In this document: positions 12,032 through 44,510 of the stretch, in pieces | Layout: every line of letters begins with the position of its first letter | Position numbering within the stretch: the stretch's first letter is position 1 | Source: an uncultured Methylibium sp. | GTDB taxonomy: Bacteria; Pseudomonadota; Gammaproteobacteria; Burkholderiales; Burkholderiaceae_C | Length of the DNA stretch: 64,000 nucleotides | Assembly (NCBI RefSeq): GCF_902826655.1 | Contig: NZ_CADEFR010000010.1 | Coordinates: 32,884-96,883, forward strand | Direction of reading: 5' to 3' | Program-made: the position numbers and the translations under genes | Notes under the pieces: model-generated | Databases searched by the model: none | The model's input: the letters and a program-made list of their open reading frames with translations, nothing else | What the model was told of the DNA's origin: nothing

Positions 12032-18511
<6,480 letters not shown>

Positions 18512-18545: not shown

Positions 18546-23252
<4,707 letters not shown>

Positions 23253-23949: not shown

Positions 23950-23952
23950 GTG

Positions 23953-25629
23953 ATGATCATGAAGAACCTCTCTGTCTCGCGACTGCGCCTGCTGACGCTG
24001 ATGATCGCCAGCTCGACCCTGCTGGCCGCCTGTGGCGGCTCGGGCGACTCGGCCGCTGAAGGCGCTGCCACCGACGAGTCGGCAGAGGCCCTGGCCTCGC
24101 GGCCCGTGACCGTCACCTGGAACAACCAGCGCTGGACGCAGGTCGCCTGGGAAGGCCGCAACTTCTCGGTCAACGGCGGTGCGCGTGAAGTGATCTTCGG
24201 CGACGGCGGTCGCTACGTGCAGCGCACCGTGTCCGGCTCCGCCAGCTGCTCCATCGCCTTCTTCGGCAGCGATCCGATCTCCGGCGTCTACAAGGCCTGC
24301 TACGTGAGCAACGGCAGCGCCGAACCGGCTCCTGCCCCGGCTCCCGCGCCGGCTCCTGCCCCCGCGCCGGCTCCTGCTCCCGCGCCGGCTCCTGCTCCCG
24401 CGCCGGCTCCTGCCCCCGCGCCGGCTCCGGCTCCGGCTCCGGCCCCCGCGCCGGCTCCCGCCCCGGCCCCGTCCGGCGCGACGGTCCTCTACTTCAGCGA
24501 CTGCCAGACGGGTGCTGCATCCGGGTGCGTGGCGGGCAACAACGCCAACGCCGGCACCCAGGCCTCGCCCAAGCGCGACCTCTCCGGCATCAACGTCAAC
24601 AACCTCGGCGCCGGCTCCCAGCTCTTCTTCGCCCGCGGCGGCTCCTGGAACATCGGCCAGCTCGAACTCGCCAACAACAACGTCTCCGCCTCCAACCCCC
24701 TCGTCCTGGACGCCTGGGGCTCCGGCGTCGCCCCCACCCTGCGCTCCACCTCCGCCGCCGCCGCCATCCAGCTCGGCGGCCGCTGGGGCAACACCGACAA
24801 CGACGGCGGCTACGTCCTGCGCAACCTGCGCATCGACGGCCTGGGCACCGGCCAGACCGGCATCTGGCTGCTCCATAACGTCCACGACGTCACCATCGAG
24901 AACGTCGAGATCACCGGCTTCTGGATCGGCATCTACGGCACCCCGGGCTCCCCCTACGGCGTCAACAACGTCTCCCTGCGCAACTCCACCATCCGCCGCA
25001 ATGGCTCCATGGGCTGGCTCGGCGGCGCCGACAACCTCACCATCGACAACGTCCTGTTCGAGGCCAACAACTTCAACGGCGACCCGCGCAACCACGCCCT
25101 CTATCTCAGCCACTCCGACAACGTGCGCATCACCAACAACCGCTTCATCCGCAACTCGGTCGTCAACGGCCAGTGCACCGGCGGCAACGTGACGGTCCAC
25201 GGCGTCGTCAACGGCATGACCATCGAGAACAACCTCGTCGAGCAGGACGCCAGCGCCATGACCTGCTACGGCATGGCCATCACCTCGGGCTATGACTCGG
25301 TCGAGACCTTCCGCAACACCGTCGTGCGCGGCAACACCATCGTCAACCTCGGCCTGTGCTCGATCTGCGTCAACTCCGCCCCGGGCATCGTCATCGAGAA
25401 CAACCGCTCCATCAACACCCGCGCCACCTACCACGTCGGCGTCGTCGAGCCCGCCAACGGCGAGCAGGACGTCGCCTCCACTGGCGCCGTCGTCCGCAAC
25501 AACACCCTCTGCCAGACCACCCCGGTCAGCGGCGCCGCCGCGGTCGCGGTCGGAGCCGCCGGGGCCCTGCTGACGGGCAACGTGACCCTCACCGGCGCGC
25601 TCGCTTCGACCGGCGTCTGCGCTCGCTGA
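23953..25629 (+). CDS. Right-handed beta-helix lipoprotein with (Ala-Pro)n linker, copy 1
   Basis: The 558-residue lipoprotein has a signal ending in lipobox LLAAC (Cys27). A small unique domain at about 48-120 (VTVTWNNQRWTQVAW, two cysteines in SCSIAF and YKACYV) follows, then a 49-residue Pro-Ala stalk, then a pectate-lyase-like parallel beta-helix from about 178. The helix shows repeated N-rich turns such as DVTIENVEITGF, NVRITNNRFIRN and GIVIENNRSIN. Such folds bind, cleave or epimerise polysaccharide; no catalytic triad is evident. Its helix domain is identical to the one near 34 kb. Starts at GTG 23950 and ATG 23959 are possible; GGAA spacing favours ATG 23953. Confidence 0.85.
   Translation: MIMKNLSVSRLRLLTLMIASSTLLAACGGSGDSAAEGAATDESAEALASRPVTVTWNNQRWTQVAWEGRNFSVNGGAREVIFGDGGRYVQRTVSGSASCSIAFFGSDPISGVYKACYVSNGSAEPAPAPAPAPAPAPAPAPAPAPAPAPAPAPAPAPAPAPAPAPAPAPAPAPSGATVLYFSDCQTGAASGCVAGNNANAGTQASPKRDLSGINVNNLGAGSQLFFARGGSWNIGQLELANNNVSASNPLVLDAWGSGVAPTLRSTSAAAAIQLGGRWGNTDNDGGYVLRNLRIDGLGTGQTGIWLLHNVHDVTIENVEITGFWIGIYGTPGSPYGVNNVSLRNSTIRRNGSMGWLGGADNLTIDNVLFEANNFNGDPRNHALYLSHSDNVRITNNRFIRNSVVNGQCTGGNVTVHGVVNGMTIENNLVEQDASAMTCYGMAITSGYDSVETFRNTVVRGNTIVNLGLCSICVNSAPGIVIENNRSINTRATYHVGVVEPANGEQDVASTGAVVRNNTLCQTTPVSGAAAVAVGAAGALLTGNVTLTGALASTGVCAR
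24325..24471 (+). repeat. In-frame (Pro-Ala)n coding tandem repeat
   Basis: 147 bases encode 49 alternating Pro and Ala residues in units of the form CCN-GCN, with mixed third bases (ccggct, cctgcc, cccgcg). It forms a rigid stalk between the N-terminal and beta-helix domains of the lipoprotein. The low-complexity tract could change length by replication slippage in 6-base steps without breaking the frame. Confidence 0.9.
24487..25538 (+). repeat. Long direct repeat, copy 1 (beta-helix coding block)
   Basis: This block matches 33591-34642 at a constant offset of 9,104 bases. Only two mismatches (24513 and 24519) appear near the left end. From 24520 to 25538, 1,019 bases look identical by eye, and the encoded protein is identical. 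Both copies have the same orientation. Identity starts just after the linker and ends inside the last helix turns, so only the functional domain is shared. Confidence 0.93.
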
Positions 25630-25694
25630 GGTCGCTCCGCGACCCCGGTCCCGCGCGAGGCCTGCCCTCGCACGGAACCGGCTCCACCCCCACC

Positions 25695-25727: not shown

Positions 25728-25891
25728 GCCCTTTGGCGGGCACGCCGTCGCGGGCCTGCGGAAAAGCGTGACGAATGCGCTGCCGCGAGGGCCCGCCACC
25801 CCTAGTCGGATGGGGCCGCGCCGTCGCCGCAAGGGGCGTGCGCGACTATGCTTTGCGGTACTTCGCCAGCGACCGTCCCCCGCCCTTGCCG

Positions 25892-27013
25892 ATGCGCCCC
25901 GACCTCACCCCCCTCGCGTTCGCCATCGCCTCGAGACCCGGCCGCTTCCTGTTCTTCGACGCCTTCGTCCGCGACCAGCGGCTGGTGCTCGTCTCGACCT
26001 ACTACCCGGACGTCGTCTTCGACTTCGCACAGGTCGAGGTGCGACTCGACGGGCAACGTCTGAGTCATTTCGAGGAGATCGGCGCCAACGAGTACGAGCC
26101 CTCGCGGGCCATCGTCTACCCGCTGGCCGACCCGGGCCGCGGGCCGCGGCTCGAACTGCAGGTCAGCTACCAGGGCCAGCAGCTGACGGCGTCCCTCGCG
26201 CCCGACGCCGGACGGCCGACGCGCGAGTTCGCGATCGCGACGCTGTTCAAGGACGACTTCGCGGACATCCCGACCTTCTATCGCTACTACAAGCTGCAAG
26301 GCGTCGACCGCTTCTATCTCTACTACAACGGCGACCTCTCCAGGGTGCGCCGCCTGCTGCCGGACGCCGACGACATCGTCTATGGCGAATGGGACTTTCC
26401 GTACTGGCTCGATCCCGAGTCCGAGGCCTTCAAGTCGGGGCTGGTCGACCCGCAGGCCGCGCGCAACAAGCACCACGCGCAGACCGCCTTCCTGAGCATG
26501 GTCCGGCACCGCTACCTGGACGACTGCTCCTACCTGGCGCTGATCGACCTGGACGAGTTCCTCGGCATCCCGGGCGAGACGGTGCGCGACCACGTCGAGC
26601 GCGCCAACCTGCCCGCGCTGACCGCCCCCTGCCACTGGGCCGAGGTCCGCTCGCTGTCCTGGCTGCCGGGTGCGCTATGGCGCAAGCGCGGCGTGCGCGT
26701 GATGCTGGCGGCCCGGGCCCGGCTGTGGGAGGCCGTGCGGCGCCGCTTCGCCAGCCGCGCCGCGACGCCCAACCTCGCCTTCCGCGAACTGCGCCACGTC
26801 TGGGCCAATGCCCGCAGCGAGGGCGGGAGCCGCGTCAAGACGGTGTACCGGGGCGACTACCCGGGCTTGTTCGGCATTCACACGCCCAAGCCGCCGACCG
26901 TCGTGACGACCTCGGACCGCATGAAGCTCTTCCACATCGTCAACACCGGCCATGGACGTCACACCCGCATCCACGGCGACGCGGTGCCGGTGCCGCTGAT
27001 CGCGCAGGGCTAG
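25892..27013 (+). CDS. Glycosyltransferase family 92-like protein
   Basis: The 373-residue protein from ATG 25892 (MRPDLTPLAF) has the GT92/DUF23 signature. FAIATLFKDDFADIPTFYRY is followed by LQGVDRFYLYYNGD, and LALIDLDEFLGIPG provides the D-x-D-like acidic motif. The C-terminal FHIVNTGHGRHT is also typical. The longer reading from 25775 adds 39 residues with no family similarity. It probably transfers a hexose to the EPS repeat unit. It is followed with a 4-base convergent overlap by a leftward carrier protein gene, so the two transcripts collide there. Confidence 0.82.
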   Translation: MRPDLTPLAFAIASRPGRFLFFDAFVRDQRLVLVSTYYPDVVFDFAQVEVRLDGQRLSHFEEIGANEYEPSRAIVYPLADPGRGPRLELQVSYQGQQLTASLAPDAGRPTREFAIATLFKDDFADIPTFYRYYKLQGVDRFYLYYNGDLSRVRRLLPDADDIVYGEWDFPYWLDPESEAFKSGLVDPQAARNKHHAQTAFLSMVRHRYLDDCSYLALIDLDEFLGIPGETVRDHVERANLPALTAPCHWAEVRSLSWLPGALWRKRGVRVMLAARARLWEAVRRRFASRAATPNLAFRELRHVWANARSEGGSRVKTVYRGDYPGLFGIHTPKPPTVVTTSDRMKLFHIVNTGHGRHTRIHGDAVPVPLIAQG

Positions 27014-27255
27014 CCGGCGGCGCGCGCCTCGATCAGCGAGAGGAGTTCGCCGACGTCCTTCAGGCTCACCACCTCGCCGGTGCTGAAGCGGATGCCGAAG
27101 TGCTTCTCGATCATCACGACGAGCCGCACGTTGTTGAGCGAGTCCCAGCCCTTGATGTCCGCCGCGGTCGTACCGGCGTGGATCTCGATGTCGTCGTCAT
27201 CGAACAGGTCGCGGAAGATCTCCTGCAGTTCGCCGCGAAAGTCCCGCATGGTCAT
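27010..27255 (-). CDS. Acyl carrier protein (FkbH partner)
   Basis: An 81-residue acidic protein with the canonical phosphopantetheine motif GWDSLNNVRLV near residue 38. It follows the fkbH-like gene by 9 bases in the same leftward operon, so it is the natural carrier for the glyceryl group FkbH enzymes take from 1,3-bisphosphoglycerate. An internal ATG at 27249 (MRDFRG) is an alternative start. The stop overlaps the convergent GT92 gene by four bases. Confidence 0.9.
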   Translation of the reverse strand: MTMRDFRGELQEIFRDLFDDDDIEIHAGTTAADIKGWDSLNNVRLVVMIEKHFGIRFSTGEVVSLKDVGELLSLIEARAAG

Positions 27256-27264
27256 GGTCTCCGA

Positions 27265-29103
27265 TCAGTTGCGAATCTGGATGCTGTGCGACAGGCCGGG
27301 CGGCTCGTCGACGTCGTAGACCCAGGTCGACCCTTCGCCGCCGGACTCGATCTGCCGGAAGCCGAGCGTTGCGTAGTGTCCCTCGACGAGCTGGTTCTTG
27401 GCCGTCGGCAGGTAGCGGCCGCGCAGGCGCTTCAGGCCCTGGCGCCGGCAGAACGCCAGCAGCTGCTCCAGGTCCAGCACCTCGACGCCGCGCTTGAGCA
27501 CGCGGCAGCTCATCAGCCACACCTCGATGTCGAGCAGGTCCGGCGCGTCGGCCGGCACGCTGCCCAGCACGACGCTGATCAGGCCGTTGTCGCCGAACTT
27601 GTCGGTGAGCCGCGTGGTCGAGGTGTACCGCTGCGAGTCGACCGCATGGGCGCGGACTTCGGCTTCGGTCATGCGCCGCGTCGTCAGGTTGAACTGGTTC
27701 GTCTTGTTGATCAGCTGCGTGGTGCGCGCGAGGTTCTGCTCGGTCACCGGCTCGACCACCGCCGTCATGCCGAGCTGGCGCAGGTAGTCGTCGTAGTTGG
27801 CGGCCGACTTCTCGAGGCTCTCGCGCGCGACATTGCCCTGGAAGAAGTCGCTGCGCTGCCGGTCCTCGGCGGTGACGCCGAGCGTGTCGAACCAGTGGCC
27901 GTCGACGAGGCACTGCACGTAATACGACGGATCGACCGGCACCTCCGGCACCGTCACCTCGGGCAGGCGGGACCGGACGAGTTCGCGCTCGGCGGGGTTG
28001 TCGTCGAAGAACACCAGCGCATCGGTCCCGATGTTGAGCTGCCGCGCGATCGTCGCGAGGTTGCCGTCCTTCGGCTCCCAGTTGGCGACGAAGCAGGCGA
28101 TGTCGGATTCCTTCAGCACCATGTCGGGATGCTCGCGGAACGGCAGGACCGCGTTCTCGTGGTGGTTCTTGCTGGCCACCGCGAGCAGCACGCCGCGGTC
28201 CTTCAGTGCCTTGACGTAGCGCTGGAAGGCGACGAAGGCTTCGCCGGCCGGCACGCCGGCGCCGAGCTGGATGCCGCCCAGGCCGTCGTCGCCGATCACG
28301 CCGCCCCACAGCGTGTTGTCGAGGTCGAGCACCAGGCACTTCTTCGACTTGCCGAACATGGCCGCGAGTGCCGCCGCCAGGTGGTCGGCGTAGTGCGGCT
28401 GGCAGTCGAAGCTGATGGCGCACTTGGCCGAGTGATACAGCCGGGCGTCCGACCAGCGCGCCTTGCCGTGGGCGGCCGACAGCATGTCCACGTCGTGCAG
28501 GAAGACCTGCGGCGGCAGATGGCGCGCCAGTTCCAGGTTCACCGCGCGCAGCAGGCTGTTGCGGGTGCCGCCGAGCACGGCGTCGAGGCTGCCGTAGGGG
28601 CGCTCCATCTCGGTCGCGAAGTTGTCGGCCAGCACCTGACAGGCGAAGCGCTCCGCGGCCGTCGCATAGAGCGTGCGGAACCGGGTGGACTCGGCCGCGG
28701 CGCGGGCCGCGGCATCGTCCTCCAGGTAGGCGAACGGCAGGTTCTGGCTGCAGACGTGGAAGTGGATCACGTCCGGCCTGAACGCCCGCAGCGCCTCGGA
28801 ATCGGACCAGATCTCCTGCTCGAACAGGCCGAAGTCGCTCTCGTAGATCTCGAGGTTGAGGCCGCGTCGCAGCGCGAACAGCCGCAGCAGCGGCACGAAG
28901 AACTGGGTCGTCGCGCCGCCCAGGATGGCCAGCCGCTTGCGCAGCGGCACCCGCGCGTCGAGGAGCTCGCGCGGGATCTTGTCCAGCGCCGTGCCGGCGT
29001 ACTGCAGGTCGTCGATCGGATCCGACGGCGAGGCCCGCAGCAGCAGCGCCAGCGCCTCGTCGTGAGCGCCAGCGCGCAGGTGGGTCTTGAGTGCACTCTT
29101 CAT
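27265..29103 (-). CDS. FkbH-like HAD-IIIC glyceryl transferase/phosphatase
   Basis: The 612-residue protein has three parts. The N-terminal 240 residues are SGNH/GDSL-like (RLAILGGATTQFF). The central HAD domain has LVLDLDNTLWGGVIGDDG (nucleophile Asp) and VFFDDNPAERELV. The C-terminal GNAT-like part has INKTNQFNLTTRRM. FkbH-type enzymes take D-1,3-bisphosphoglycerate, remove phosphate and load glyceryl on a carrier protein. The carrier gene follows directly, and SGNH and MBOAT genes precede it, so the glyceryl may go to the polysaccharide rather than a polyketide. I chose ATG 29103, which overlaps the SGNH stop as ATGA. Confidence 0.92.
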   Translation of the reverse strand: MKSALKTHLRAGAHDEALALLLRASPSDPIDDLQYAGTALDKIPRELLDARVPLRKRLAILGGATTQFFVPLLRLFALRRGLNLEIYESDFGLFEQEIWSDSEALRAFRPDVIHFHVCSQNLPFAYLEDDAAARAAAESTRFRTLYATAAERFACQVLADNFATEMERPYGSLDAVLGGTRNSLLRAVNLELARHLPPQVFLHDVDMLSAAHGKARWSDARLYHSAKCAISFDCQPHYADHLAAALAAMFGKSKKCLVLDLDNTLWGGVIGDDGLGGIQLGAGVPAGEAFVAFQRYVKALKDRGVLLAVASKNHHENAVLPFREHPDMVLKESDIACFVANWEPKDGNLATIARQLNIGTDALVFFDDNPAERELVRSRLPEVTVPEVPVDPSYYVQCLVDGHWFDTLGVTAEDRQRSDFFQGNVARESLEKSAANYDDYLRQLGMTAVVEPVTEQNLARTTQLINKTNQFNLTTRRMTEAEVRAHAVDSQRYTSTTRLTDKFGDNGLISVVLGSVPADAPDLLDIEVWLMSCRVLKRGVEVLDLEQLLAFCRRQGLKRLRGRYLPTAKNQLVEGHYATLGFRQIESGGEGSTWVYDVDEPPGLSHSIQIRN

Positions 29104-30236
29104 CGGGTCGGTCCGCCGTCCTGGTCGAGCACCGCGAGCGTCGCCTGCGCGGCCTTCAGGTCGCATTGCGGCGTGAAGTGGCCGTCAGGGATGTAGTGGG
29201 TGCGGTCGGTCGACGGACACAGGTCGAAACTGCTGACGACCGGCACGCCCTTCGCCTCGAGCGTCCGGCGCAGCAGCACGTCCAGGTGGTTCGCGTAGTC
29301 GCGCGTCGAGAACAGCACGACGACGGGCTTCACGCCCTCGGCACGCAGGTCGTCGACCATGCGCTGCAGCACGGCCTCGAACACCTGGATGATGTGCGAG
29401 TCCTTCTTGAAGCCGCGGCTCCCGTAGGCCTGGGCCACGTAGTTGTCGGCGTGCCGCTTGGCCAGGCCGCGCCGCACGAAGCGGGCGATCAGGCTGTGGT
29501 CGAGGGCGCTGGCCGCGAACAGCGGGCGCTGGAAGGCGTCGTCGTGCCGCGCCATCACGTCGAGCTGGCGAGCCCACAGCGCCGGGTCGTCGCGGAAGGC
29601 CCGGGCCAGTTCGTCCGGCGAGTTGATCAGTGGCGTGCCGGTGCGCTCGATGCGACCATCGACCAGCTCGTAGCGCGGGAAGAAGTACGGCATCGGGGCG
29701 TCGGCGTTGACGCTGCCGATGTTCATCGTCAGCACCTGCGCGACGTCCTCGGAGGCGACGCCGATGACTGCCGTGCGCGTCTTGCGTTTGCTGCGGTCGA
29801 GCTCGTAGAAGCCGTAGGCGTGGTTCAGTGGCGCCCCCGGACCGCCGACGAAGCGCAATTTCAGGTCGGGCCGCAGCTCGCGCATCGCCTTGCCCAGGTT
29901 GCCGGCGAAGGAGCTGCCGTAGACCGTGACGTCGACATCGGCCGGCTTGTCGGCCAGCGCCGCCTCGTTGATCCACCCGGCGAACAGGATCGAGTTGGGT
30001 GCCGGGTTCGGCGTCGCGACCAGCTGGCGCAGCTTGCTCTCGTAGGACGAGCCGTACCAGAAATACGACCGCATCGACGCGTTGCGCAGCGGCGTGTGGT
30101 TGAAGGCGACCCAGCACAGCAGCTCGAAGAGCAGCAGCGTCACGACGAACCCGACGGCCGTCACGCCGGCAGCGCGCCAGCGCGACGCGGCCGGCGCGGC
30201 CTCAGAACTGGAAGTAGATGAACTGGGTGGATGCAT
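29100..30236 (-). CDS. Membrane-anchored SGNH protein (DltD/AlgJ-like acyl-transfer partner)
   Basis: A 378-residue protein with one N-terminal membrane anchor (GVTAVGFVVTLLLFELLCWVAF, about 23-45) and a periplasmic SGNH-like domain. VTVYGSSFAGNLG holds the candidate serine, and IPDGHFTPQCD holds an Asp-x-His pair near the C-terminus. Proteins of this design (DltD, AlgJ, AlgX) work with an MBOAT to move an acyl group onto an extracellular polymer. The MBOAT gene is directly upstream and overlaps by 35 bases; fkbH overlaps its 3' end. The partner role is well supported by context; the acyl group is inferred as glyceryl. Confidence 0.82.
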   Translation of the reverse strand: MHPPSSSTSSSEAAPAASRWRAAGVTAVGFVVTLLLFELLCWVAFNHTPLRNASMRSYFWYGSSYESKLRQLVATPNPAPNSILFAGWINEAALADKPADVDVTVYGSSFAGNLGKAMRELRPDLKLRFVGGPGAPLNHAYGFYELDRSKRKTRTAVIGVASEDVAQVLTMNIGSVNADAPMPYFFPRYELVDGRIERTGTPLINSPDELARAFRDDPALWARQLDVMARHDDAFQRPLFAASALDHSLIARFVRRGLAKRHADNYVAQAYGSRGFKKDSHIIQVFEAVLQRMVDDLRAEGVKPVVVLFSTRDYANHLDVLLRRTLEAKGVPVVSSFDLCPSTDRTHYIPDGHFTPQCDLKAAQATLAVLDQDGGPTR

Positions 30237-31623
30237 TCGACAGCCCCATCAGCAGGAGCGTGAACAGCGTGGCGTACAGCGCGCCACGGACCATCGGCGG
30301 CCAGCGCAGGTAGAAGCGCTCGCTTTCGTGGCGGTAGGCCAGGTGGTCCAGCACGAGGAACAGCGGGATCGCCAGCAGCGTCGCGAAGGTCGGGCGCTTG
30401 AGGTGGAAGTCGAGCGCGCCGATGTGCGCGATCGCGCCGAGGAAGTCGCCGATCTGCTCGACCGAGGTGGCGCGGAAGATCAGCAGGCTCACCAGCGTCA
30501 CGTGGAAGTAGAGCACGATCCAGAACGCGCCGGGGATGCGCTTGCGCAGCGGCTTCAGCGCCTTCGGCCACTTGACCAGCGACCACAGGATCAGCATCAG
30601 GCCGTGGTACAGGCCCCACAGGATGTAGGTCCAGGCCGCGCCGTGCCACAGCCCCATCAGCAGCATCGCGTAGAGGTGCGGGCGGGCCTCGTTGAGCTTG
30701 CTGTCGCCCTTGCGCAGGTAGTGCAGCGCGAGCGGCAGGTAGATGTAGTCCTTGACCCAGCTCGACAGGCTGATGTGCCAGCGCGTCCAGTACTCGGACG
30801 GCGACTTGGCATAGAACGGCGTCATGAAGTTCTTGATGACGTCGAAGCCCAGCATCCGCGCGACGCCGCGGGCGACGTCCGTGTAGCCGGAGAAGTCGCA
30901 GTAGATCTGCAGCACGTAGAGGTAGGAGGCCGCCGCCATGTCGGCGCCGCTGAACCCGCCCTGGCCGCTGAAGACCGGGTCGATGGTCTCGGACAGCCCA
31001 TCGGCGATGACGATCTTCTTGAACAGGCCCAGCAGCACCAGGAAGGCGCCTCGCGTGAAGCCCTCGAGCGTCAGCACCCGCGCGGCGGCGATCTGCGGCA
31101 GCAGGCGCGTGGCGCGCTCGATCGGACCCGACAGCAGCAGCGGGAAGAAGGAGACGTAGAGCGCGCAGTCGGTGAAGCTCTCGACCGGCTTCAGCTTGCC
31201 GCGGTGGACGTCGAGCACGTAGCCGATCGCCTGGAAGGTGTAGAACGAGATGCCGACCGGCAGGACCAGGTTGAGGCCGACCCAGCCGAGCTTCATGCCG
31301 AACAGCGCGAGCAGGGCCTCGAAGGACTCGGCGAAGAAGCCGAGGTACTTGAACAGGCCCAGCACGCCCAGCAGCACGCCGACGGCCAGCAGCATCCAGC
31401 GCTTGCGCACGGCCGCGTCCTCGGTCCGGCCCATGGCCCGCGTGCACAGGTAGACGAGCACGGTGGACCCGAGGAGCAGGCCCATGAAGCGCCAGTCCCA
31501 GAAGCCGTAGAAGAAGTAGCTCGCGACGAGCAGCAGGTGGTTCTGCGCCCGGTGCTTCAGCACCGAGTACAGCGCCAGCACCACGGTCATGAAGACGAGG
31601 AAACTGAGACTGTTGAATAGCAC
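30202..31623 (-). CDS. MBOAT family O-acyltransferase (AlgI/DltB-like)
   Basis: The 473-residue polytopic membrane protein begins MLFNSLSFLVFMTVVLALYS, the standard AlgI-family start. It contains ASYFFYGFWDW, LPVGISFYTFQAIGY, DFSGYTDVARGVARMLGF, YWTRWHISLSSWVKDYIY and LLMGLWHGAAWTYILWG with the catalytic His. It should accept an acyl group from a cytoplasmic thioester and pass it across the membrane for O-acylation of a polysaccharide. It leads the operon MBOAT-SGNH-FkbH-ACP. Classical AlgI uses acetyl groups, so O-acetylation is the alternative to glyceryl transfer. Confidence 0.94.
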   Translation of the reverse strand: MLFNSLSFLVFMTVVLALYSVLKHRAQNHLLLVASYFFYGFWDWRFMGLLLGSTVLVYLCTRAMGRTEDAAVRKRWMLLAVGVLLGVLGLFKYLGFFAESFEALLALFGMKLGWVGLNLVLPVGISFYTFQAIGYVLDVHRGKLKPVESFTDCALYVSFFPLLLSGPIERATRLLPQIAAARVLTLEGFTRGAFLVLLGLFKKIVIADGLSETIDPVFSGQGGFSGADMAAASYLYVLQIYCDFSGYTDVARGVARMLGFDVIKNFMTPFYAKSPSEYWTRWHISLSSWVKDYIYLPLALHYLRKGDSKLNEARPHLYAMLLMGLWHGAAWTYILWGLYHGLMLILWSLVKWPKALKPLRKRIPGAFWIVLYFHVTLVSLLIFRATSVEQIGDFLGAIAHIGALDFHLKRPTFATLLAIPLFLVLDHLAYRHESERFYLRWPPMVRGALYATLFTLLLMGLSNASTQFIYFQF

Positions 31624-33374: not shown

Positions 33375-34733
33375 ATGCACCAGCCGAACCGCCCTGCGCC
33401 GCAGTCCACCGCGACCCGCCTCCTCTTCCTGTCCATGGCCTTTGCGGTATTGAGTGCCTGCGGCGGCGGCGGTGGCGGCGAGACCGCGGGTTCCGAGGGT
33501 CCGGTGGGCACACCGTCCCCGTCGCCTTCTCCGTCGCCCTCACCTTCCCCGTCGCCGTCCCCGGCGCCGCCGGCGGGTGCCACGGTGACGCTCTACTTCA
33601 GCGACTGCCAGACGGGCGCTGCGTCCGGGTGCGTGGCGGGCAACAACGCCAACGCCGGCACCCAGGCCTCGCCCAAGCGCGACCTCTCCGGCATCAACGT
33701 CAACAACCTCGGCGCCGGCTCCCAGCTCTTCTTCGCCCGCGGCGGCTCCTGGAACATCGGCCAGCTCGAACTCGCCAACAACAACGTCTCCGCCTCCAAC
33801 CCCCTCGTCCTGGACGCCTGGGGCTCCGGCGTCGCCCCCACCCTGCGCTCCACCTCCGCCGCCGCCGCCATCCAGCTCGGCGGCCGCTGGGGCAACACCG
33901 ACAACGACGGCGGCTACGTCCTGCGCAACCTGCGCATCGACGGCCTGGGCACCGGCCAGACCGGCATCTGGCTGCTCCATAACGTCCACGACGTCACCAT
34001 CGAGAACGTCGAGATCACCGGCTTCTGGATCGGCATCTACGGCACCCCGGGCTCCCCCTACGGCGTCAACAACGTCTCCCTGCGCAACTCCACCATCCGC
34101 CGCAATGGCTCCATGGGCTGGCTCGGCGGCGCCGACAACCTCACCATCGACAACGTCCTGTTCGAGGCCAACAACTTCAACGGCGACCCGCGCAACCACG
34201 CCCTCTATCTCAGCCACTCCGACAACGTGCGCATCACCAACAACCGCTTCATCCGCAACTCGGTCGTCAACGGCCAGTGCACCGGCGGCAACGTGACGGT
34301 CCACGGCGTCGTCAACGGCATGACCATCGAGAACAACCTCGTCGAGCAGGACGCCAGCGCCATGACCTGCTACGGCATGGCCATCACCTCGGGCTATGAC
34401 TCGGTCGAGACCTTCCGCAACACCGTCGTGCGCGGCAACACCATCGTCAACCTCGGCCTGTGCTCGATCTGCGTCAACTCCGCCCCGGGCATCGTCATCG
34501 AGAACAACCGCTCCATCAACACCCGCGCCACCTACCACGTCGGCGTCGTCGAGCCCGCCAACGGCGAGCAGGACGTCGCCTCCACTGGCGCCGTCGTCCG
34601 CAACAACACCCTCTGCCAGACCACCCCGGTCAGCGGCGCCGCGGCAGCCGCCGTCGGGGCCATCGGTGCCATCCTGAGCGGCAACGTCACCTTGACGGGA
34701 GCTTCGGCCTCGACCGGCGTCTGCGCCCGCTGA
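33375..34733 (+). CDS. Right-handed beta-helix lipoprotein with (Ser-Pro)n linker, copy 2
   Basis: The 452-residue lipoprotein has lipobox VLSAC (Cys29), a Gly-rich patch after the Cys, a short Ser-Pro stalk (residues about 47-65), then the same beta-helix as lipoprotein copy 1, from LYFSDCQTGAASGC to TGVCAR. The helix differs only in the last 30 or so residues. It lacks the small N-terminal domain of copy 1. The domain has several Cys residues and Asn ladders typical of extracellular parallel beta-helices. A role in binding, trimming or epimerising the EPS at the outer membrane is inferred. Confidence 0.85.
   Translation: MHQPNRPAPQSTATRLLFLSMAFAVLSACGGGGGGETAGSEGPVGTPSPSPSPSPSPSPSPSPAPPAGATVTLYFSDCQTGAASGCVAGNNANAGTQASPKRDLSGINVNNLGAGSQLFFARGGSWNIGQLELANNNVSASNPLVLDAWGSGVAPTLRSTSAAAAIQLGGRWGNTDNDGGYVLRNLRIDGLGTGQTGIWLLHNVHDVTIENVEITGFWIGIYGTPGSPYGVNNVSLRNSTIRRNGSMGWLGGADNLTIDNVLFEANNFNGDPRNHALYLSHSDNVRITNNRFIRNSVVNGQCTGGNVTVHGVVNGMTIENNLVEQDASAMTCYGMAITSGYDSVETFRNTVVRGNTIVNLGLCSICVNSAPGIVIENNRSINTRATYHVGVVEPANGEQDVASTGAVVRNNTLCQTTPVSGAAAAAVGAIGAILSGNVTLTGASASTGVCAR
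33591..34642 (+). repeat. Long direct repeat, copy 2 (beta-helix coding block)
   Basis: Partner of 24487-25538, with the same orientation and 9,104-base offset. Sequence beyond 34642 (gcggcagccgccgtc) and before 33591 diverges at once. The first ~700 bases use TCC for Ser and CTC for Leu much more than neighbouring genes, which prefer TCG and CTG. Confidence 0.93.
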
Positions 34734-34786
34734 GCCCGTCGTCCCGGACTCGGCGGGTCGGCAGGACCGCCGCGTTCTGATCGCCA

Positions 34787-34966: not shown

Positions 34967-36238
34967 ATGATCGGCATGCCCGTCTTCGGCCGCACGACTC
35001 GCCCGCTGCGTCTGCGTCACGGCCTGCTGTGGGCGCTGACCCTGGGGCTGGCCGGACTGGCCGGCTGCGCCAACCTGGCGTCCGCCCGCAGCTATCACTT
35101 CAGCGATTGCCAGGAAGGCGCCGCGCCCGGCTGCGTGCCCGGCAGCAACGGCAACCCGGGGACGGCCGCCGCGCCCAAGCGCGACCTGTCCGCGATCGAC
35201 GTCAACTCGCTGGCACCGGGTTCGCAACTGCTGTTCCGCCGGGGTGGGTCGTGGAACCACCGCATGCTGGAGCTCGAGAACGACTACGTCACGCCGACCG
35301 CTCCGCTGGTGTTCGACGCCTACGGCGAGGGCCCGCTGCCGCTGCTGCGGACCGCACGGGCCAACGCCTTCCTGGTCGGGGGCCGCTGGGCCAACACCAG
35401 CAACGACGGTGGCTACACCTTCCGCAACCTCAAGCTCGATGGGCTCGGCACTGCGGACTGGGGCATCTGGCTCGTCCACAACGTGCGCAACGTGACGGTC
35501 GAGAACGTCGAGATCACCGGCTTTCACATCGCCATCCACGCCAGCGGCGGCGGCCCGCACGGCATCCACCACGTGATCGTGCGCAACTCGACCATCCGGC
35601 GCAACGGCTCGATGGGATTCCTGGGGACGATCAACGACAGCGTCTTCGAGGGCAACCTGTTCGAAGCCAACAACTTCTCGGGCAGCAACCGCAACCACGC
35701 GATCTACCAGTCCGGCGGCAACAACAACACCTTCCGCAACAACAAGCTGATCCGCAACTCGGTCGCCAACGGCACCTGCACCGGGGGCAACTTCACGGTC
35801 CACGGTCAGGTGGACCGCCTGCTGATCGAGGGCAACCTGATCGAGCAGGACGCTGCGGCCGGCGGCTGCTACGGCTTCAGCGTGACGACCGGCTACGACT
35901 CGAACGAGTGGTTCCGCAACGTCGTCGTCCGCGGCAACACGGTCGTCAATGTCGGCTACTGCGCCGTGTGCGCCAATGCCGCGCCGGGCATTGTGATCGA
36001 GGGCAACCGGCTGATCAACACCGCCAGCACCTACCAGGTCAGCGTGCAGATCCCGACCAGCAAGCGCAGCCCGGGCGACGACGAGGACGCGCGCGCGGTC
36101 GTACGCAACAACGTGATCTGCCACGCCGCGCCGGCGAGCGGCAGCACCGACGTGCGCGTCGCCGGCGACGGCGCCCAGGTGAGCGGCAACGTCTACCGAC
36201 GCGACCGGGACGCGACGACGGGGCCGTGTGCCCGTTGA
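34967..36238 (+). CDS. Right-handed beta-helix lipoprotein, diverged third paralogue
   Basis: A 423-residue lipoprotein with lipobox LAGC (Cys34) and no stalk; the helix starts almost directly (YHFSDCQEGAAPGC). It aligns along its length with the two repeated lipoproteins (PKRDLSAIDVNSLAPGSQLLF, NSTIRRNGSMGF, APGIVIEGNRLIN), clearly related but much less similar, and uses the host-like TCG and CTG codons. GGAGATCAG precedes ATG 34967. The gene is 45 bases upstream of a GT4 gene and probably co-transcribed with it. Function is unknown beyond probable polysaccharide contact. Confidence 0.85.
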   Translation: MIGMPVFGRTTRPLRLRHGLLWALTLGLAGLAGCANLASARSYHFSDCQEGAAPGCVPGSNGNPGTAAAPKRDLSAIDVNSLAPGSQLLFRRGGSWNHRMLELENDYVTPTAPLVFDAYGEGPLPLLRTARANAFLVGGRWANTSNDGGYTFRNLKLDGLGTADWGIWLVHNVRNVTVENVEITGFHIAIHASGGGPHGIHHVIVRNSTIRRNGSMGFLGTINDSVFEGNLFEANNFSGSNRNHAIYQSGGNNNTFRNNKLIRNSVANGTCTGGNFTVHGQVDRLLIEGNLIEQDAAAGGCYGFSVTTGYDSNEWFRNVVVRGNTVVNVGYCAVCANAAPGIVIEGNRLINTASTYQVSVQIPTSKRSPGDDEDARAVVRNNVICHAAPASGSTDVRVAGDGAQVSGNVYRRDRDATTGPCAR

Positions 36239-37510: not shown

Positions 37511-39199
37511 CTAGGCGGCGCGCCGGCCCGGCGCGAGCTGCGCGTCGACGGCCTGCGCCACGCGCAGCGCGTTGGCGGCGATGGTCAGGCTCGGGTTGGT
37601 GCCGCCGCTGGAAGGGAAGAACGACGCGTCGACGACGTAGAGGTTCGACAGCCCGTGCGCCTTGTTGTCGCGATCGAGCACGCTCGTCGCCGGGTCGTCG
37701 CCGAAGCGGCAGGTGCCGCAGACATGACCGAAGTTGATGTTGTTCTCGCCCGAGAGCACGATGACGCGATGCGGCGCGAGCCGTTCCGCCAATCGGCGCC
37801 TGAAAGCCTTCACGCGGGCGCTCAGTTCCTCGGGATAGCGGTACTCGAAGCGCATGCCGCTCGCGGCCTGCGGATCGGCAACGACGCGGTTGTCGTGGTA
37901 CGGCAGATCCTCGACGATCGTCGCCCAGACGGCAGCGTTCTTGAAGTTGAGGCCGTGGAACATGATCATCGCCGCGAGCCGCACGAAGGGACTCGACAGC
38001 TTGCGCCACCAGGTTGGCCGCGGGCTGGCCAGCCGGGTCCACCAGCGCGGATCGGTCTGGGCGACATCGCGCATGTACTGCATGATCTGGCCGACGCCGA
38101 TCGCTGCACCGGCCGTCTGGAACGTGCCGAGCTTGCGGCCGCCCTCCTGGTAGAAGTCGTTGAGCGCGAGCGTCTTCTGCGGGCCGTCGCCCGACAGGCG
38201 CTCGAGCGGCCGCACGGCGACGAAGTCGCTGGCGTGGAACATCAGGTTGCGCCCGACCAGCCCCGAGCGATTCGCCAGGCCATCGGGCCAATGCTCGTTG
38301 CGGGAGTTGAGCAGCAGCACGGGCGACATGTAGGCGCCTGCAGCCAGCGCCACGACCTTGGCGCGCAGCGCGAACTCGCGACCATCGCGGCGACACCACA
38401 GTCGCTTGACGTCGCGTGCGTCGGCTTCGAGCCTCAGCACCTCGCACTGCGCCAGCAGGCTCGCGCCGTGCTGGCGCAGCGCCGGCAGCATGCAGATCCA
38501 GGCCGAGTCGCTCTTGCAGGCGCGCGCGCAAGGCCCCTCGCCGCAACCGTTGCAGCCTTCGACGAACTCGTAGCCGGCGTGGATGCGGTAGGGATGCAGG
38601 CCGCGAGCCTCGAACGACGCGCAGAAGTGGCGGTCGCGGGCGTTCAGTGCCGGCGGCTCGCGCAAGGACGGCGCCAGCGCCGCGTCGAGCGGGTCCTGGC
38701 TGCCGCGCACCCGGTACAGCGACTCAGCCTGCTCGTAGAAGGGCCGCAGCTCTTCGTAGGCGATCGGCCAGCGCTCGGGCAGGGTCGAGTCGGCGACGTC
38801 AGGGAAGTTGCCGCGCGGGCGGAAGTCGGCCGGCGAGAAGCGCTCGAGCCCCGCCGCGTACAGGGCCGTCGAGCCGCCGGACCCGCAGCCGAGCGGCGCG
38901 AAGAACTCGATCTCGCCGAAGCTGGTGCGTCCCTTCAGACGCGTCGGCCAGCGGCCGCGTTGCAGCCGCGCTTCCTCGGAATCGGCATCGACGTCCGGGC
39001 CGCGGCCGCCGTCCGTGGGCGACTTCGCCAGGCCGCCGAACTCCCCGTGCAGGAACAGGCCCTTCTCGATGAACAGCACGCGATGCCCACGCCGGGCCAT
39101 CTCGAACCCGAAAGTGGCTCCGCCCATGCCGGTGCCGATGACCGCGACGTCCCATTCGGTGGCCTCGGGATCGGCCGGGACGTGTGCCCCCGGACTCAT
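37511..39199 (-). CDS. GMC-type FAD oxidoreductase with Cys-rich motif
   Basis: The 562-residue flavoprotein starts near MSPGAHVPADPEATEWDVAV. VIGTGMGGATFGFEMARRG is the FAD dinucleotide site and CGSGGSTALYAAG the second FAD motif. The GMC C-terminal domain has GHVCGTCRFGDDP and VVDASFFPSSGGTNPSLT. An unusual EGCNGCGEGPCARACKSD segment (spacing C-x2-C-x4-C-x3-C) could hold an Fe-S cluster or disulfides. It should oxidise an alcohol or sugar hydroxyl. ATG 39199 overlaps the SDR stop as ATGA, so the two are translationally coupled, perhaps acting in sequence on one sugar or lipid carrier. Confidence 0.88.
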   Translation of the reverse strand: MSPGAHVPADPEATEWDVAVIGTGMGGATFGFEMARRGHRVLFIEKGLFLHGEFGGLAKSPTDGGRGPDVDADSEEARLQRGRWPTRLKGRTSFGEIEFFAPLGCGSGGSTALYAAGLERFSPADFRPRGNFPDVADSTLPERWPIAYEELRPFYEQAESLYRVRGSQDPLDAALAPSLREPPALNARDRHFCASFEARGLHPYRIHAGYEFVEGCNGCGEGPCARACKSDSAWICMLPALRQHGASLLAQCEVLRLEADARDVKRLWCRRDGREFALRAKVVALAAGAYMSPVLLLNSRNEHWPDGLANRSGLVGRNLMFHASDFVAVRPLERLSGDGPQKTLALNDFYQEGGRKLGTFQTAGAAIGVGQIMQYMRDVAQTDPRWWTRLASPRPTWWRKLSSPFVRLAAMIMFHGLNFKNAAVWATIVEDLPYHDNRVVADPQAASGMRFEYRYPEELSARVKAFRRRLAERLAPHRVIVLSGENNINFGHVCGTCRFGDDPATSVLDRDNKAHGLSNLYVVDASFFPSSGGTNPSLTIAANALRVAQAVDAQLAPGRRAA

Positions 39200-39954
39200 G
39201 CGCTCCTGGACAGCCCGAGGGCCTTCTTCACCCAGCGCTTCAGCCGGGTCCGCCGCCCGACGTTCTCCTCGTAGAGCGCGCTCTGGACAAAGGTCTGGCC
39301 GGTCGGGCCGCCCCTGGGCAAGCCCGCAACGAAACGGAGGTGCGGATAGATGGCCGCGGTGTCCTCGCCGGACTCGCTCATGCGGGTCCGCACGATGCCC
39401 GGCATCAGCTGGTTGACCAGGACATCGGGGAAGCGCGAACGGTCGATCTCGCTGGCCAGCGCCTTCGTCAGCGGCCCGACTGCGCCCTTGGACACCGAGT
39501 AGGCCGAGCTGTTGGGAATCGGACCGCGCCAGGCGAACGAACCGAGGTTGACGATGCGTCCGAAGCCGTTCGCCAGCATGTCCGGCAGCGCCATCCGGCA
39601 GCACAGTGCCATGCCGATCACGTTGACCTCGATGACACGACGCCAGTCCTCGTGCGAGCCCTCGAGAAAGCCCTGCTTCGGATACAGCGCCGCATTGTTG
39701 ACCAGCACGTCGACGCGGCCCGAGATCGCCTTCGCCTCGACGAACAGGCGCTCCACGTCGTCAGGGCGCGACACGTCGCCGACCACGAAGCTCATGGCGC
39801 CCGGCCGGCACATGGCCATCGTCTGCTCGAGGTCGCTGCGGGTGCGTCCGATACCGACCACGCGTGCGCCGTCGGCGCAGAAGCCCACCGCCGCAGCGCG
39901 TCCGATCCCGGATCCGGCACCGGTGACGATCACCGTCTTCCCAGAAAAATCCAT
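39196..39954 (-). CDS. Short-chain dehydrogenase/reductase (SDR)
   Basis: A 252-residue classical SDR: TGAGSGIGRAAAVGF binds NAD(P), NNAALYP is the structural motif, LGSFAWRGP carries the catalytic Ser, and SAYSVSKGA the Tyr-x3-Lys. It reduces or oxidises a hydroxyl/keto group; with the GMC oxidoreductase immediately downstream it may epimerise or deoxidise a sugar by sequential oxidation and reduction. ATG 39954 is the best start, and the frame continues upstream only as shadow of the divergent gene. Substrate is unknown. Confidence 0.92.
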   Translation of the reverse strand: MDFSGKTVIVTGAGSGIGRAAAVGFCADGARVVGIGRTRSDLEQTMAMCRPGAMSFVVGDVSRPDDVERLFVEAKAISGRVDVLVNNAALYPKQGFLEGSHEDWRRVIEVNVIGMALCCRMALPDMLANGFGRIVNLGSFAWRGPIPNSSAYSVSKGAVGPLTKALASEIDRSRFPDVLVNQLMPGIVRTRMSESGEDTAAIYPHLRFVAGLPRGGPTGQTFVQSALYEENVGRRTRLKRWVKKALGLSRSA

Positions 39955-40026
39955 GGTGACTCCGCAACCCGACACGCGCTGATGGAACAATCGCTCGGCG
40001 GCGGGATGGTACCGCAGGAGGTAGGA

Positions 40027-41439
40027 ATGAATCAGTCGCGCATGCCACTCGGTCGAGTGGTCCGGGCGCTGTTGCTGCTGCTCGGCGCCTTGCTCTTGGC
40101 CTATGCCATTTCGGACCATCCGTTCTACGGCGGTGAGCCCGGGTTCGGGCGACTGCAGTCGCTGATCGCCGCGGTCGGCGTCGCGCTCGCGGTCGCGGCA
40201 GCCCTGCCGCTGCGCTTCGCCGAACGCGTCCTGCTGGTCGCTGTGACCTGCCTCGTCATGCTGGCGCTGGCGGAGGCCGCTGCTGCCATCGTCCTCGGGC
40301 AGTCGATCCGCCCGATCTACCAGACGGACGAACGACTGATCTTCAAGTTCATTCCCGATCGGCAGAGCGTGATGAAGCGGCTGCCGGCCAACGGCGGCAC
40401 CGTCGTCGGCCATCGCATCAACACCGACGGGTTTCGCGGGGAGGAGCTGCTGCCGGCCGGCAGCGCGAGGCGCGTCGTCATCTATGGCGACTCCTTCATC
40501 CATGCCTCCTACACGCCCGACGACGAGACCTTCGCGGTCGTGCTGGGCCGGCAGCTGCAGGCAGCAGCCGGCGCGCGCATCGAGGTGGTCAACGCCGGCG
40601 TCAGCTCGTACGGCCCGGACCAGATCATCCTCAAGATGGAGGACGAGTTGCCGCGGCTGCGTCCCGACCTCGTGGTCGTCTCGGTGTTCGCCGGCAACGA
40701 CTACGGCGACCTGATGCGCAACAAGCTCTTTCGGCTGGGCGCCGACGGTCGGCTCGTCGCCAACCGCTGGACGCTGGATCCTGCCGTGCGCAGCAAGCTC
40801 GAGCTCAGCCAGCGCGAGTCGCTCCTGCTGCGCGCACTGCGGCAGATGCTCGGATCGTTCCGATCGCGCGGTGGCGCCGACGGCGCAGCGAACGAGGCCG
40901 CGAAGTTCTCGGACTGGGACTTCCTGCTGGCCGAGGCGGAGCGCGAGTACCGCAGCTTCATCGTCGACGGCAACGACGTCGTCACGAACACGCACGTCGA
41001 CTACTACAGCGCCGACGTCAGCCTGCAGCCGGAGAGCCCTTCGGCACGCTACAAGGTGGCGCTGATGCGCGCGGTGCTGCAGCGCATCCGCGATGTCGCC
41101 CGGGCTCAGGGCGTACCGCTCGCCTTCCTCTTCATTCCCCATCCGAACGACGTGACGGACAAGTACGACTGGGGTCCAGTCGATCGGGCCCGCTTCCCCA
41201 GCTACGACGGACGCAACCAGACCGCACCACTCGAAGACGCGGCACGCTCGCTCGGTGTGCCCTTCGTCAACCTCTACGAGCCCTACCGCGCCGTCGATGC
41301 CAGCCAGCTGTACTTCCGTGGCGGCGACGATCACTGGAACGCGGCCGGCCAGCGCATGGCGGCGGAGTTGATGGCGCGGCTGACCGCACCGATGCTCCCT
41401 CCGGGCCTGCCTGCCGCTGCGTCGGCACCGGCGCGCTGA
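40027..41439 (+). CDS. Membrane-anchored SGNH hydrolase-like protein
   Basis: The 470-residue protein from ATG 40027 follows a strong AGGAGGT ribosome site. Three hydrophobic segments at about 12-30, 44-62 and 66-90 lead to an extracytoplasmic SGNH domain. VVIYGDSFIHASY carries the nucleophile Ser, VVNAGVSSYGPDQ the Gly, SVFAGNDYGDL the Asn and GGDDHWNAAGQ the Asp/His pair. It may be an esterase or acyl-transfer enzyme acting on EPS, separate from the SGNH protein coupled to the MBOAT. It diverges from the SDR gene with a 72-base gap and ends 23 bases from the convergent flippase. Confidence 0.82.
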   Translation: MNQSRMPLGRVVRALLLLLGALLLAYAISDHPFYGGEPGFGRLQSLIAAVGVALAVAAALPLRFAERVLLVAVTCLVMLALAEAAAAIVLGQSIRPIYQTDERLIFKFIPDRQSVMKRLPANGGTVVGHRINTDGFRGEELLPAGSARRVVIYGDSFIHASYTPDDETFAVVLGRQLQAAAGARIEVVNAGVSSYGPDQIILKMEDELPRLRPDLVVVSVFAGNDYGDLMRNKLFRLGADGRLVANRWTLDPAVRSKLELSQRESLLLRALRQMLGSFRSRGGADGAANEAAKFSDWDFLLAEAEREYRSFIVDGNDVVTNTHVDYYSADVSLQPESPSARYKVALMRAVLQRIRDVARAQGVPLAFLFIPHPNDVTDKYDWGPVDRARFPSYDGRNQTAPLEDAARSLGVPFVNLYEPYRAVDASQLYFRGGDDHWNAAGQRMAAELMARLTAPMLPPGLPAAASAPAR

Positions 41440-41462: not shown

Positions 41463-42854
41463 TCAGTACAGGACCCAGGCCAGGGCCTTGTCAAGCAGCC
41501 AGCCCACTGCGCCTCCGGCGACGAGGGCGACCGGCAGGCAGGCGTCGTTCCAGAGGCTCGTCAGGCCCTCCTTGTAGCGGAACCACAGCGCGATCGGCCA
41601 ATGCGCGAACTGGCTCAGCACGATGGCCGTGAGCGCGCCATCCAGCTGGTAGTGCGCAAAGCCCAGGGGCAGGCCGACCAGCAGCACGACGACGCGCGGC
41701 AGCATGCTGGCGGCCACCAGCGAGTTGCGCCCCATCGCCGTGTAGACGAGCTCGACGAGGAACATCCGGGCACCGAGCGAGCCGATCGCGAGCACCGCGA
41801 AGATGTGGCCGGCGCCCTGGTAGCGGTCGTCGTACAGCAGGTCGATGATCGTCTCGCTGGCCATGAACATCGCGCCGGCCAGCAGACCCAGCGAGACGTC
41901 GATCAGCTGCTGGAACTTGCGATAGGTGCGCGGCAGATCAGCGCGGCGCTCGCGCACCACCTCGCTGACGGCCGGATAGACGACGCGCATCATCACCATG
42001 TTCAGCACCGTCGAGCCGAGCGTGGCCAGGCCGAAGGCGATCGAGTACAGGCCGAAGCTGGTGCTGTCGGCCAGCCCGCCGAGCAGCAGGCGATCACCGT
42101 TGGTGGCGATGAAGCCCATCAGGGTGGTCAGCAGGATCCACTTGCCCTTGCTGATCAGTTCCCTGAAGGCTTCGGGCTCGAGCCGCAGGGCCGGTCTCGG
42201 GCCCTCGAGCAGCAGGTGCGACAGCACGCACTTGAGCAGCGACGTCACGAGGCCGCCGACCACCAGCGCCCACACCGACGCCGTCCACAGGGCCAGGCCG
42301 ACCGTCACGACCAGCGACCCGAGCCCGGCCGCGATGTCGACCAGGGAGAGCTTGCGCAGGTCCAGGTTGCGCTCGGCCAGCTTGTTGTTGACCGAGCCGA
42401 ATCCGATGATCGCCAGGCCGAAGGTCGCCACCGCGATCATCGGCGGCAGTTGCGGGTCGGCGTAGACGGTGCCGGCGACGAACCAGCCCCAGGACTGTCC
42501 GAGGGCCACGGTGGCCGCCACGACGAGGCCGAGCATCCACAGCGCCAGGCCGCGGATGATCTGCAAGGTCCAGGCGGTGTGCAGGAAGGCCCGCTCCGCA
42601 CCGCGGTGGCTCTGCACGATGACGGTCCCGGCTCCGATGTCGGAGATCAGGTTGAGCGCCATCATCAGCGTCGAGATCACCGCCATGATGCCGAAGGCGT
42701 CGGGCATCAGCAGGCGGGCGAGGATCAGGTTGCCGATCAGGCGCGTGACCTGGCCGACCACGTGTCCGCCGCCCACCCAGGCACCCGCGCGCAGGCTGCG
42801 ACGGCGCAGCGAGGCGCTGCGTTCGCGGGGATTGGACGGGACGTCGGTGCGCAT
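41463..42854 (-). CDS. Wzx-type oligosaccharide flippase (MOP superfamily)
   Basis: The 463-residue polytopic protein starts MRTDVPSNPRERSASLRRRS (basic, cytoplasmic) and then has about 12-14 membrane segments. ARLLMPDAFGIMAVISTLMM is the classic polysaccharide-synthesis (PST) flippase start. SDIGAGTVIVQ and LIRGLALWML-type segments follow. It should translocate undecaprenyl-linked repeat units to the periplasm. It is the last gene of the eps assembly operon, 53 bases after the polymerase. Confidence 0.9.
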   Translation of the reverse strand: MRTDVPSNPRERSASLRRRSLRAGAWVGGGHVVGQVTRLIGNLILARLLMPDAFGIMAVISTLMMALNLISDIGAGTVIVQSHRGAERAFLHTAWTLQIIRGLALWMLGLVVAATVALGQSWGWFVAGTVYADPQLPPMIAVATFGLAIIGFGSVNNKLAERNLDLRKLSLVDIAAGLGSLVVTVGLALWTASVWALVVGGLVTSLLKCVLSHLLLEGPRPALRLEPEAFRELISKGKWILLTTLMGFIATNGDRLLLGGLADSTSFGLYSIAFGLATLGSTVLNMVMMRVVYPAVSEVVRERRADLPRTYRKFQQLIDVSLGLLAGAMFMASETIIDLLYDDRYQGAGHIFAVLAIGSLGARMFLVELVYTAMGRNSLVAASMLPRVVVLLVGLPLGFAHYQLDGALTAIVLSQFAHWPIALWFRYKEGLTSLWNDACLPVALVAGGAVGWLLDKALAWVLY

Positions 42855-44500: not shown

Positions 44501-44510
44501 GGGCGGTGCC

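Follow-up and report, generated by a model that had tools for sequence, protein, structure and literature searches.

A probable Dlt-like acylation module with FkbH as loader in an exopolysaccharide cluster of an uncultured Methylibium sp.

In an uncultured Methylibium sp. (assembly GCF_902826655.1, contig NZ_CADEFR010000010.1, positions 32,884 to 96,883; this 64,000-nucleotide stretch is called the window throughout), four minus-strand genes at 27010-31623 encode a DltB-like membrane acyltransferase of the MBOAT family, a protein with an SGNH fold, an FkbH protein and a carrier protein. The module is probably a Dlt-like acylation machine in which FkbH serves as the loader and which acts on a surface polysaccharide, a reading to which we assign a probability of about 0.72. 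Its evidence is the gene set, the motifs, the SGNH fold, the type of docking segment in the MBOAT and the recurrence of the set without a polyketide synthase (PKS), each read from sequence or from a structure model. Following FkbH precedent, the phosphopantetheine of the 81-residue carrier would receive a glyceryl group that FkbH draws from 1,3-bisphosphoglycerate, and the loaded carrier would dock on an HC-type helix on the cytoplasmic side of the MBOAT. This acyltransferase would then, presumably in this direction, transfer the acyl group to the tyrosine within its C-terminal FIYFQF, which would take the role of DltX; from there the group would pass to Ser109 of the membrane-anchored SGNH protein; this protein would esterify a hydroxyl of the surface polysaccharide, putatively the one from the surrounding Wzx/Wzy cluster.

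The MBOAT gene (30202-31623, GTG start) matches PF03062 (E 1.9e-21; 77.2 bits against a cut-off of 27), and its product has histidines at positions 283 and 327, the second aligned with DltB His336. It overlaps the SGNH gene (29100-30236), whose product has a single N-terminal hydrophobic helix, by 35 bases (30202-30236), and the SGNH gene in turn overlaps the FkbH gene (27265-29103; an alternative in-frame ATG lies at 29166) by 4 bases (29100-29103). FkbH consists of FkbH_N (E 2.1e-17), HAD-IIIC and C-terminal domains, keeps the DLDNTLWGG motif intact and scores 302 bits against TIGR01686 (cut-off 146.65). After a 9-base gap follows the acyl carrier protein (ACP, 27010-27255), with a PP-binding match over its cut-off (E 2.1e-6) and the attachment site Ser39 in GWDSL. 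FkbH domain, HAD motif and adjacent carrier, the features of FkbH glyceryl loaders, are all present, and both coordinates and family matches agree with the initial annotation, which had described a coupled order of MBOAT, SGNH, FkbH and ACP with overlaps of 35 and 4 bases. A single MBOAT and a single FkbH_N match were detected across the whole genome, both inside the module. The third-position GC content of the module genes is 0.92-0.98. The same gene order recurs on L028, a contig of 5183 bases labelled Cyanobium sp. Morenito 9A2, where 4281 bases align at 95.8% DNA identity; dN/dS against it is 0.19 for FkbH and 0.11 for the carrier (the SGNH gene was left out because of gaps), and the MBOAT shows dN 0, with zero amino-acid changes over the 289 codons present in L028. 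Because of this base composition and the low dN/dS, the module genes look real. The Cyanobium-labelled contig may itself derive from a heterotroph within the culture. PDB 3slr (uncharacterised protein BF1531) is the sole solved relative found with the FkbH profile at E 0.001.

The nearest known system in its logic is Dlt (DltA-DltD and DltX), which D-alanylates teichoic acids and, like the module, combines a carrier-fed MBOAT with an SGNH transferase; a carrier protein is present in the operon here as well. Among solved structures, the window MBOAT matches DltB alone, in an alignment that covers the helix on which DltC docks. According to PMC11035591, DltC docks on DltB helix HC through Met302, Val305, Ile306 and Met309; MBOAT residues 293-314 (30682-30747, minus strand) align with this helix, and a phmmer alignment places L296, A299, L300 and L303 at these four positions. 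Membership of the Dlt system was nevertheless rejected: the module contains no DltA (25 genome matches to TIGR01734, none over its cut-off), the SGNH protein has no DltD family match, and the MBOAT, homologous to DltB as it is (TIGR04091, E 4.8e-52), reaches 177.4 bits against a curated cut-off of 375. The NCBIfam DltC model gives the carrier an E of 0.0013, under its cut-off. Also unlike Dlt, loading falls to FkbH and not to an adenylating DltA, the MBOAT carries at its own C-terminus the shuttle motif that in Dlt belongs to DltX, and the setting is an exopolysaccharide (EPS) cluster. The earlier description of a Dlt-like module with FkbH in place of DltA is supported for its carrier-fed MBOAT/SGNH logic with FkbH as loader.

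The MBOAT has a PatA-type architecture. As in PatAB/AlgIJX-type systems, PF03062 with the catalytic His is joined by an SGNH-fold partner and by a C-terminal hexapeptide, FIYFQF (30205-30222, minus strand), which corresponds to the FXYXXF acyl-shuttle motif. The passages of PMC12148441 on this motif place it on DltX in the Dlt system and at the C-terminal end of the MBOAT in other systems, and state that MBOAT/SGNH pathways other than Dlt lack a carrier; the missing carrier is evidently due to the use of acyl-CoA. The window MBOAT ends in FIYFQF, yet a carrier gene is present in its operon, so that the module combines features that these passages keep apart. Unlike PatA/PatB and AlgI/AlgJ/AlgX O-acetylation, it has a carrier and a loader and its MBOAT has no LGGNR-type loop; with the loop absent and the carrier in the operon, a carrier-free acyl-CoA donor appears not to apply.

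Two MBOAT segments were compared between linked loci, defined as those with an MBOAT within 5 kb of FkbH, and unlinked ones. Of 78 FkbH-linked MBOATs, 61 have FXYXXF, which is not discriminating by itself, being also carried by MBOATs without FkbH. The segment just before the catalytic His, a stretch that forms helix HC in DltB, differs between the two groups: the strict pattern LGGNRxGxxR occurs in 25/27 unlinked MBOATs, taken from order genomes without detected FkbH, vs 5/71 linked ones. With more loci, 30/41 unlinked and 6/78 linked MBOATs were positive; here 40 MBOAT loci without FkbH within 5 kb were chosen non-randomly (20 lower- and 20 higher-scoring), and nine truncated or short MBOATs and those more than 5 kb from FkbH were dropped. 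Among the unlinked MBOATs, a carrier gene lies within 3 kb in none of the 30 with the LGG loop and in 5 of the 11 without it. The Fisher p-values of this analysis (2e-13 and 6e-4) overstate independence, as the loci share ancestry. On the MBOAT tree, 8 changes account for the linked label, vs a shuffled mean of 23.9 (0/500 as low), and the nearest rows to the window MBOAT are all linked. Linked MBOATs of the order (L140, L141 and L144) fall in supported all-linked sets with members from other orders and phyla; L145, 3.8 kb from its FkbH, is an exception by its loop.

For the SGNH protein, the fold is assigned by a structure model, and residues G107, S109 and H353 are invariant in alignment A3. 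No Pfam or NCBIfam match was found, the DltD family included. In structure comparison the protein comes closest to esterases and PatB: Foldseek ranks TesA and GDSL esterases first, 3bma (titled D-alanyl-lipoteichoic acid synthetase) seventh, PatB fifteenth and DltD (6pfx) twentieth. The label 'DltD-like' in the initial annotation consequently applies to the fold and not to the family. In such a model, transferase and hydrolase are not distinguishable from the SGNH fold alone. SGNH partners of MBOATs are diverse; the seeds of the profile used for them came from linked loci, around which a somewhat wider zone was searched.

Sets of FkbH and MBOAT recur widely. An alignment of 11 FkbH sequences was used as the query against named genomes; of the best 80 of 578 loci, a sample biased toward window-like FkbH, 48 have an MBOAT within 5 kb, 74 a carrier, 3 an adenylation (A) domain and none a ketosynthase. 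Hosts of linked loci include Gemmatimonadota, Cyanobacteriota, Helicobacter, Legionella, Pseudomonas, Paraburkholderia, Selenomonas and Ruminococcus. An MBOAT is near FkbH in 4/17 loci of the order sample, 19/60 of the phylum sample (its 74 places being these 60, ten counted separately, the window's own and three already in the order sample) and 12/20 of a one-family sample (20 of 34 places; two more are in the phylum sample and the other 12 outside the count). Pooled, 83 of 187 FkbH loci are MBOAT-linked; in many loci the sequence stops less than 5 kb from FkbH. PF03062 is not common (27/100 order genomes, with 33 matches, and 58/150 phylum genomes), and the estimated chance that a given gene has an MBOAT within 5 kb is about 0.1%; chance neighbourhood is ruled out by these samples. 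A plasmid record of S. meliloti has MBOAT, a receptor-annotated gene, ACP and FkbH, and plasmid records of Rhodobacteraceae SC52 and Tistrella also carry the set, the Tistrella MBOAT on the opposite strand. In S. meliloti 1021 (L027) the FkbH reading is split over two open reading frames (ORFs), which form a single ORF in strain RCAM1750 (L026).

These data bear on an alternative in which the glyceryl-carrier feeds the neighbouring nonribosomal peptide synthetase (NRPS) and PKS, as a starter, methoxymalonyl extender or tetronate unit, and the MBOAT and SGNH proteins acetylate EPS separately. FkbH proteins loading glyceryl from 1,3-bisphosphoglycerate onto a stand-alone carrier serve polyketide pathways (methoxymalonyl, tetronate) in the portion of PMC7489565 that describes them, which makes these the closest analogues of the FkbH-ACP pair; the NRPS (18546-23252) and PKS (12032-18511) are near the module on the same strand, and in four of ten further phylum loci the FkbH ORF also has an A-domain. 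However, FkbH and the MBOAT belong to one overlapping gene string, and two plus-strand genes (23950-25629 and 25775-27013) separate it from the NRPS. Unlike the polyketide FkbH-ACP pairs, this one is combined with a membrane acyltransferase and has no tailoring or condensing partner in the window, where Pfam scans of 36 ORFs found no acyl-CoA dehydrogenase, 3-hydroxyacyl-CoA dehydrogenase or FabH-type family. A ketosynthase occurs within 5 kb in none of the 83 linked loci and an A-domain in one; the two profiles derive from the PKS and NRPS of the window itself and were counted only within 5 kb. Separate acetylation is at odds with the lack of an LGGNR-type loop. On account of the gene string, the missing ketosynthases and the absent tailoring families, PKS supply was rejected as first choice, and we regard this alternative as very unlikely. 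The conserved sets lacking a PKS that the initial annotation had suggested searching for do exist, which supports its view that the module is independent of polyketide starter supply.

More broadly, there are about even odds that carrier-fed MBOAT-SGNH systems form a wide envelope-acylation class with varied loaders and carrier-tailoring enzymes, in which the donor could be read from one MBOAT segment, an LGGNR loop denoting acyl-CoA and a DltB-like HC helix denoting a carrier protein. Genes beside the carriers of unlinked MBOATs encode an AMP ligase, a radical SAM protein, two methyltransferases and a ketosynthase III-like protein (below its Pfam cut-off); together with FkbH, the first three types and perhaps the last would feed a common export unit. 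Such a class would correct the published view of non-Dlt pathways as carrier-free. For the module itself, if the proposed reading is true, glycerate esters of bacterial polysaccharides would gain a genetic basis, the Dlt export logic would be tied neither to D-alanine nor to teichoic acids, a sequence rule would separate carrier-fed from acyl-CoA-fed MBOATs, and a swappable cassette for polymers bearing new acyl groups would be available.

Several observations weigh against the proposed acylation machine. Within the docking interface, DltB Lys312 and Arg317 are replaced by Gly306 and Asn311 in the window MBOAT and the carrier has Arg at the position of DltC Glu40, and the salt bridges of Dlt are accordingly not conserved. 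Of the 78 linked MBOATs, six are LGG-positive (one, L291, looks like a pattern artefact) and 17 lack an exact FXYXXF, and the equation of the LGG loop with an acyl-CoA donor is presumed from a comparison set without a characterised PatA or AlgI sequence. The MBOAT tree is a quick tree with long branches, and the window MBOAT's smallest supported set comprises 47 rows, including 5 unlinked ones. The SGNH model has a mean pLDDT of 63.6 and zero Foldseek matches passing E 0.001, and the protein is very divergent, its block V reading D-G-H instead of DxxH. In the locus samples, 104/187 FkbH loci have no nearby MBOAT, including all of the ten further phylum loci (0/10), several of which lie in very long frames; a ketosynthase is near 2/187 and an A-domain near 8/187 (within 5 kb or in the same ORF), and because ten loci have one or the other, FkbH also serves NRPS/PKS. 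The NRPS and PKS are 3.8 kb from the module. Finally, we infer the glyceryl cargo, on FkbH precedent, and the EPS acceptor, and the cargo need not be glyceryl everywhere, given the tailoring genes in some linked loci.

FkbH-carrier pairs without an MBOAT are equally common, so FkbH has several uses. Such a pair is found beside a WcbI-type gene in Niveispirillum (L023) and beside methyltransferase and VOC genes in Paroceanicella (L025), and other transferases may use the same loaded carrier. In L377, L378, L379 and L380, an FkbH-like domain and an A-domain share ORFs of more than 2,600 amino acids, with FkbH built into NRPS-type proteins. The tailoring genes are those of four linked loci from Helicobacter, Synergistales and Selenomonas, in which a short-chain dehydrogenase/reductase (SDR) gene lies between FkbH and MBOAT (L059 and L074), accompanied in L048 and L081 by a MaoC dehydratase gene, which suggests a modified cargo. 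It is conceivable that the window machine is the same and the cargo differs, FkbH yielding a unit such as lactyl, glycolyl or a further modified group, and FkbH specificity is not readable from sequence. The window module has no such tailoring gene, however, and the FkbH product in the portion of PMC7489565 concerned is unmodified glyceryl; we give this possibility little credence.

As to the acceptor, the module sits inside an EPS (Wzx/Wzy/Wzz) cluster, with flippase-type (41463-42854), Wzy-type (42908-44563) and Wzz-type (46306-47721) genes, and glycosyltransferase genes flank it on either side. This placement argues for EPS over an alternative in which the same machine and cargo modify lipopolysaccharide, another envelope glycan or a glycosylated NRPS/PKS product; the diversity of SGNH partners and two GT2 genes beside the window NRPS/PKS leave that alternative some room, and we think it unlikely. 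Sugar neighbours do not discriminate at other loci: Pfam scans found Glycos_transf_1 in 7/131 ORFs from 12 linked loci, and sugar genes also surround 12 FkbH loci without an MBOAT. A unit drawn from 1,3-bisphosphoglycerate would give D-glycerate. Gellan is a precedent for glycerate esters on bacterial EPS, and the gellan passage of PMC9737242 names a glyceryltransferase activity, with no gene, and an L-glycerate, a form also named in the title of Kuo 1986 in its reference list, vs the D form expected from FkbH; given this difference, gellan may or may not use the FkbH route. No paper on FkbH and MBOAT acylating a polysaccharide was found among the literature matches listed (for two of the searches 30 of 1,038 and 25 of 73 papers), a weak absence with subscription journals mostly uncovered.

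The NRPS/PKS cluster (2283-23252) adjoins the EPS locus and also encodes formyltransferase and MupA/Atu3671 luciferase-like monooxygenase domains, a crotonyl-CoA reductase, a carbamoyltransferase and an AurF-type oxygenase, along with the GT2 genes. A second SGNH gene (39184-41439, plus strand) matches GDSL over the cut-off and AlgX just under it; its product has transmembrane-like segments and a D-D-H-W string, and no MBOAT adjoins it. Because the genome has one detected MBOAT, this gene may share that of the module. Two direct repeats of 1146 bp, 97.9% identical (24487-25630 and 33591-34734), lie within two beta-helix-like lipoprotein genes, and a third, weaker copy is found at 34967-36238 (60-71% in compared blocks). 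The two direct-repeat copies are 9.1 kb apart and enclose the whole module and two glycosyltransferases, and recombination between them could delete or amplify the cassette.

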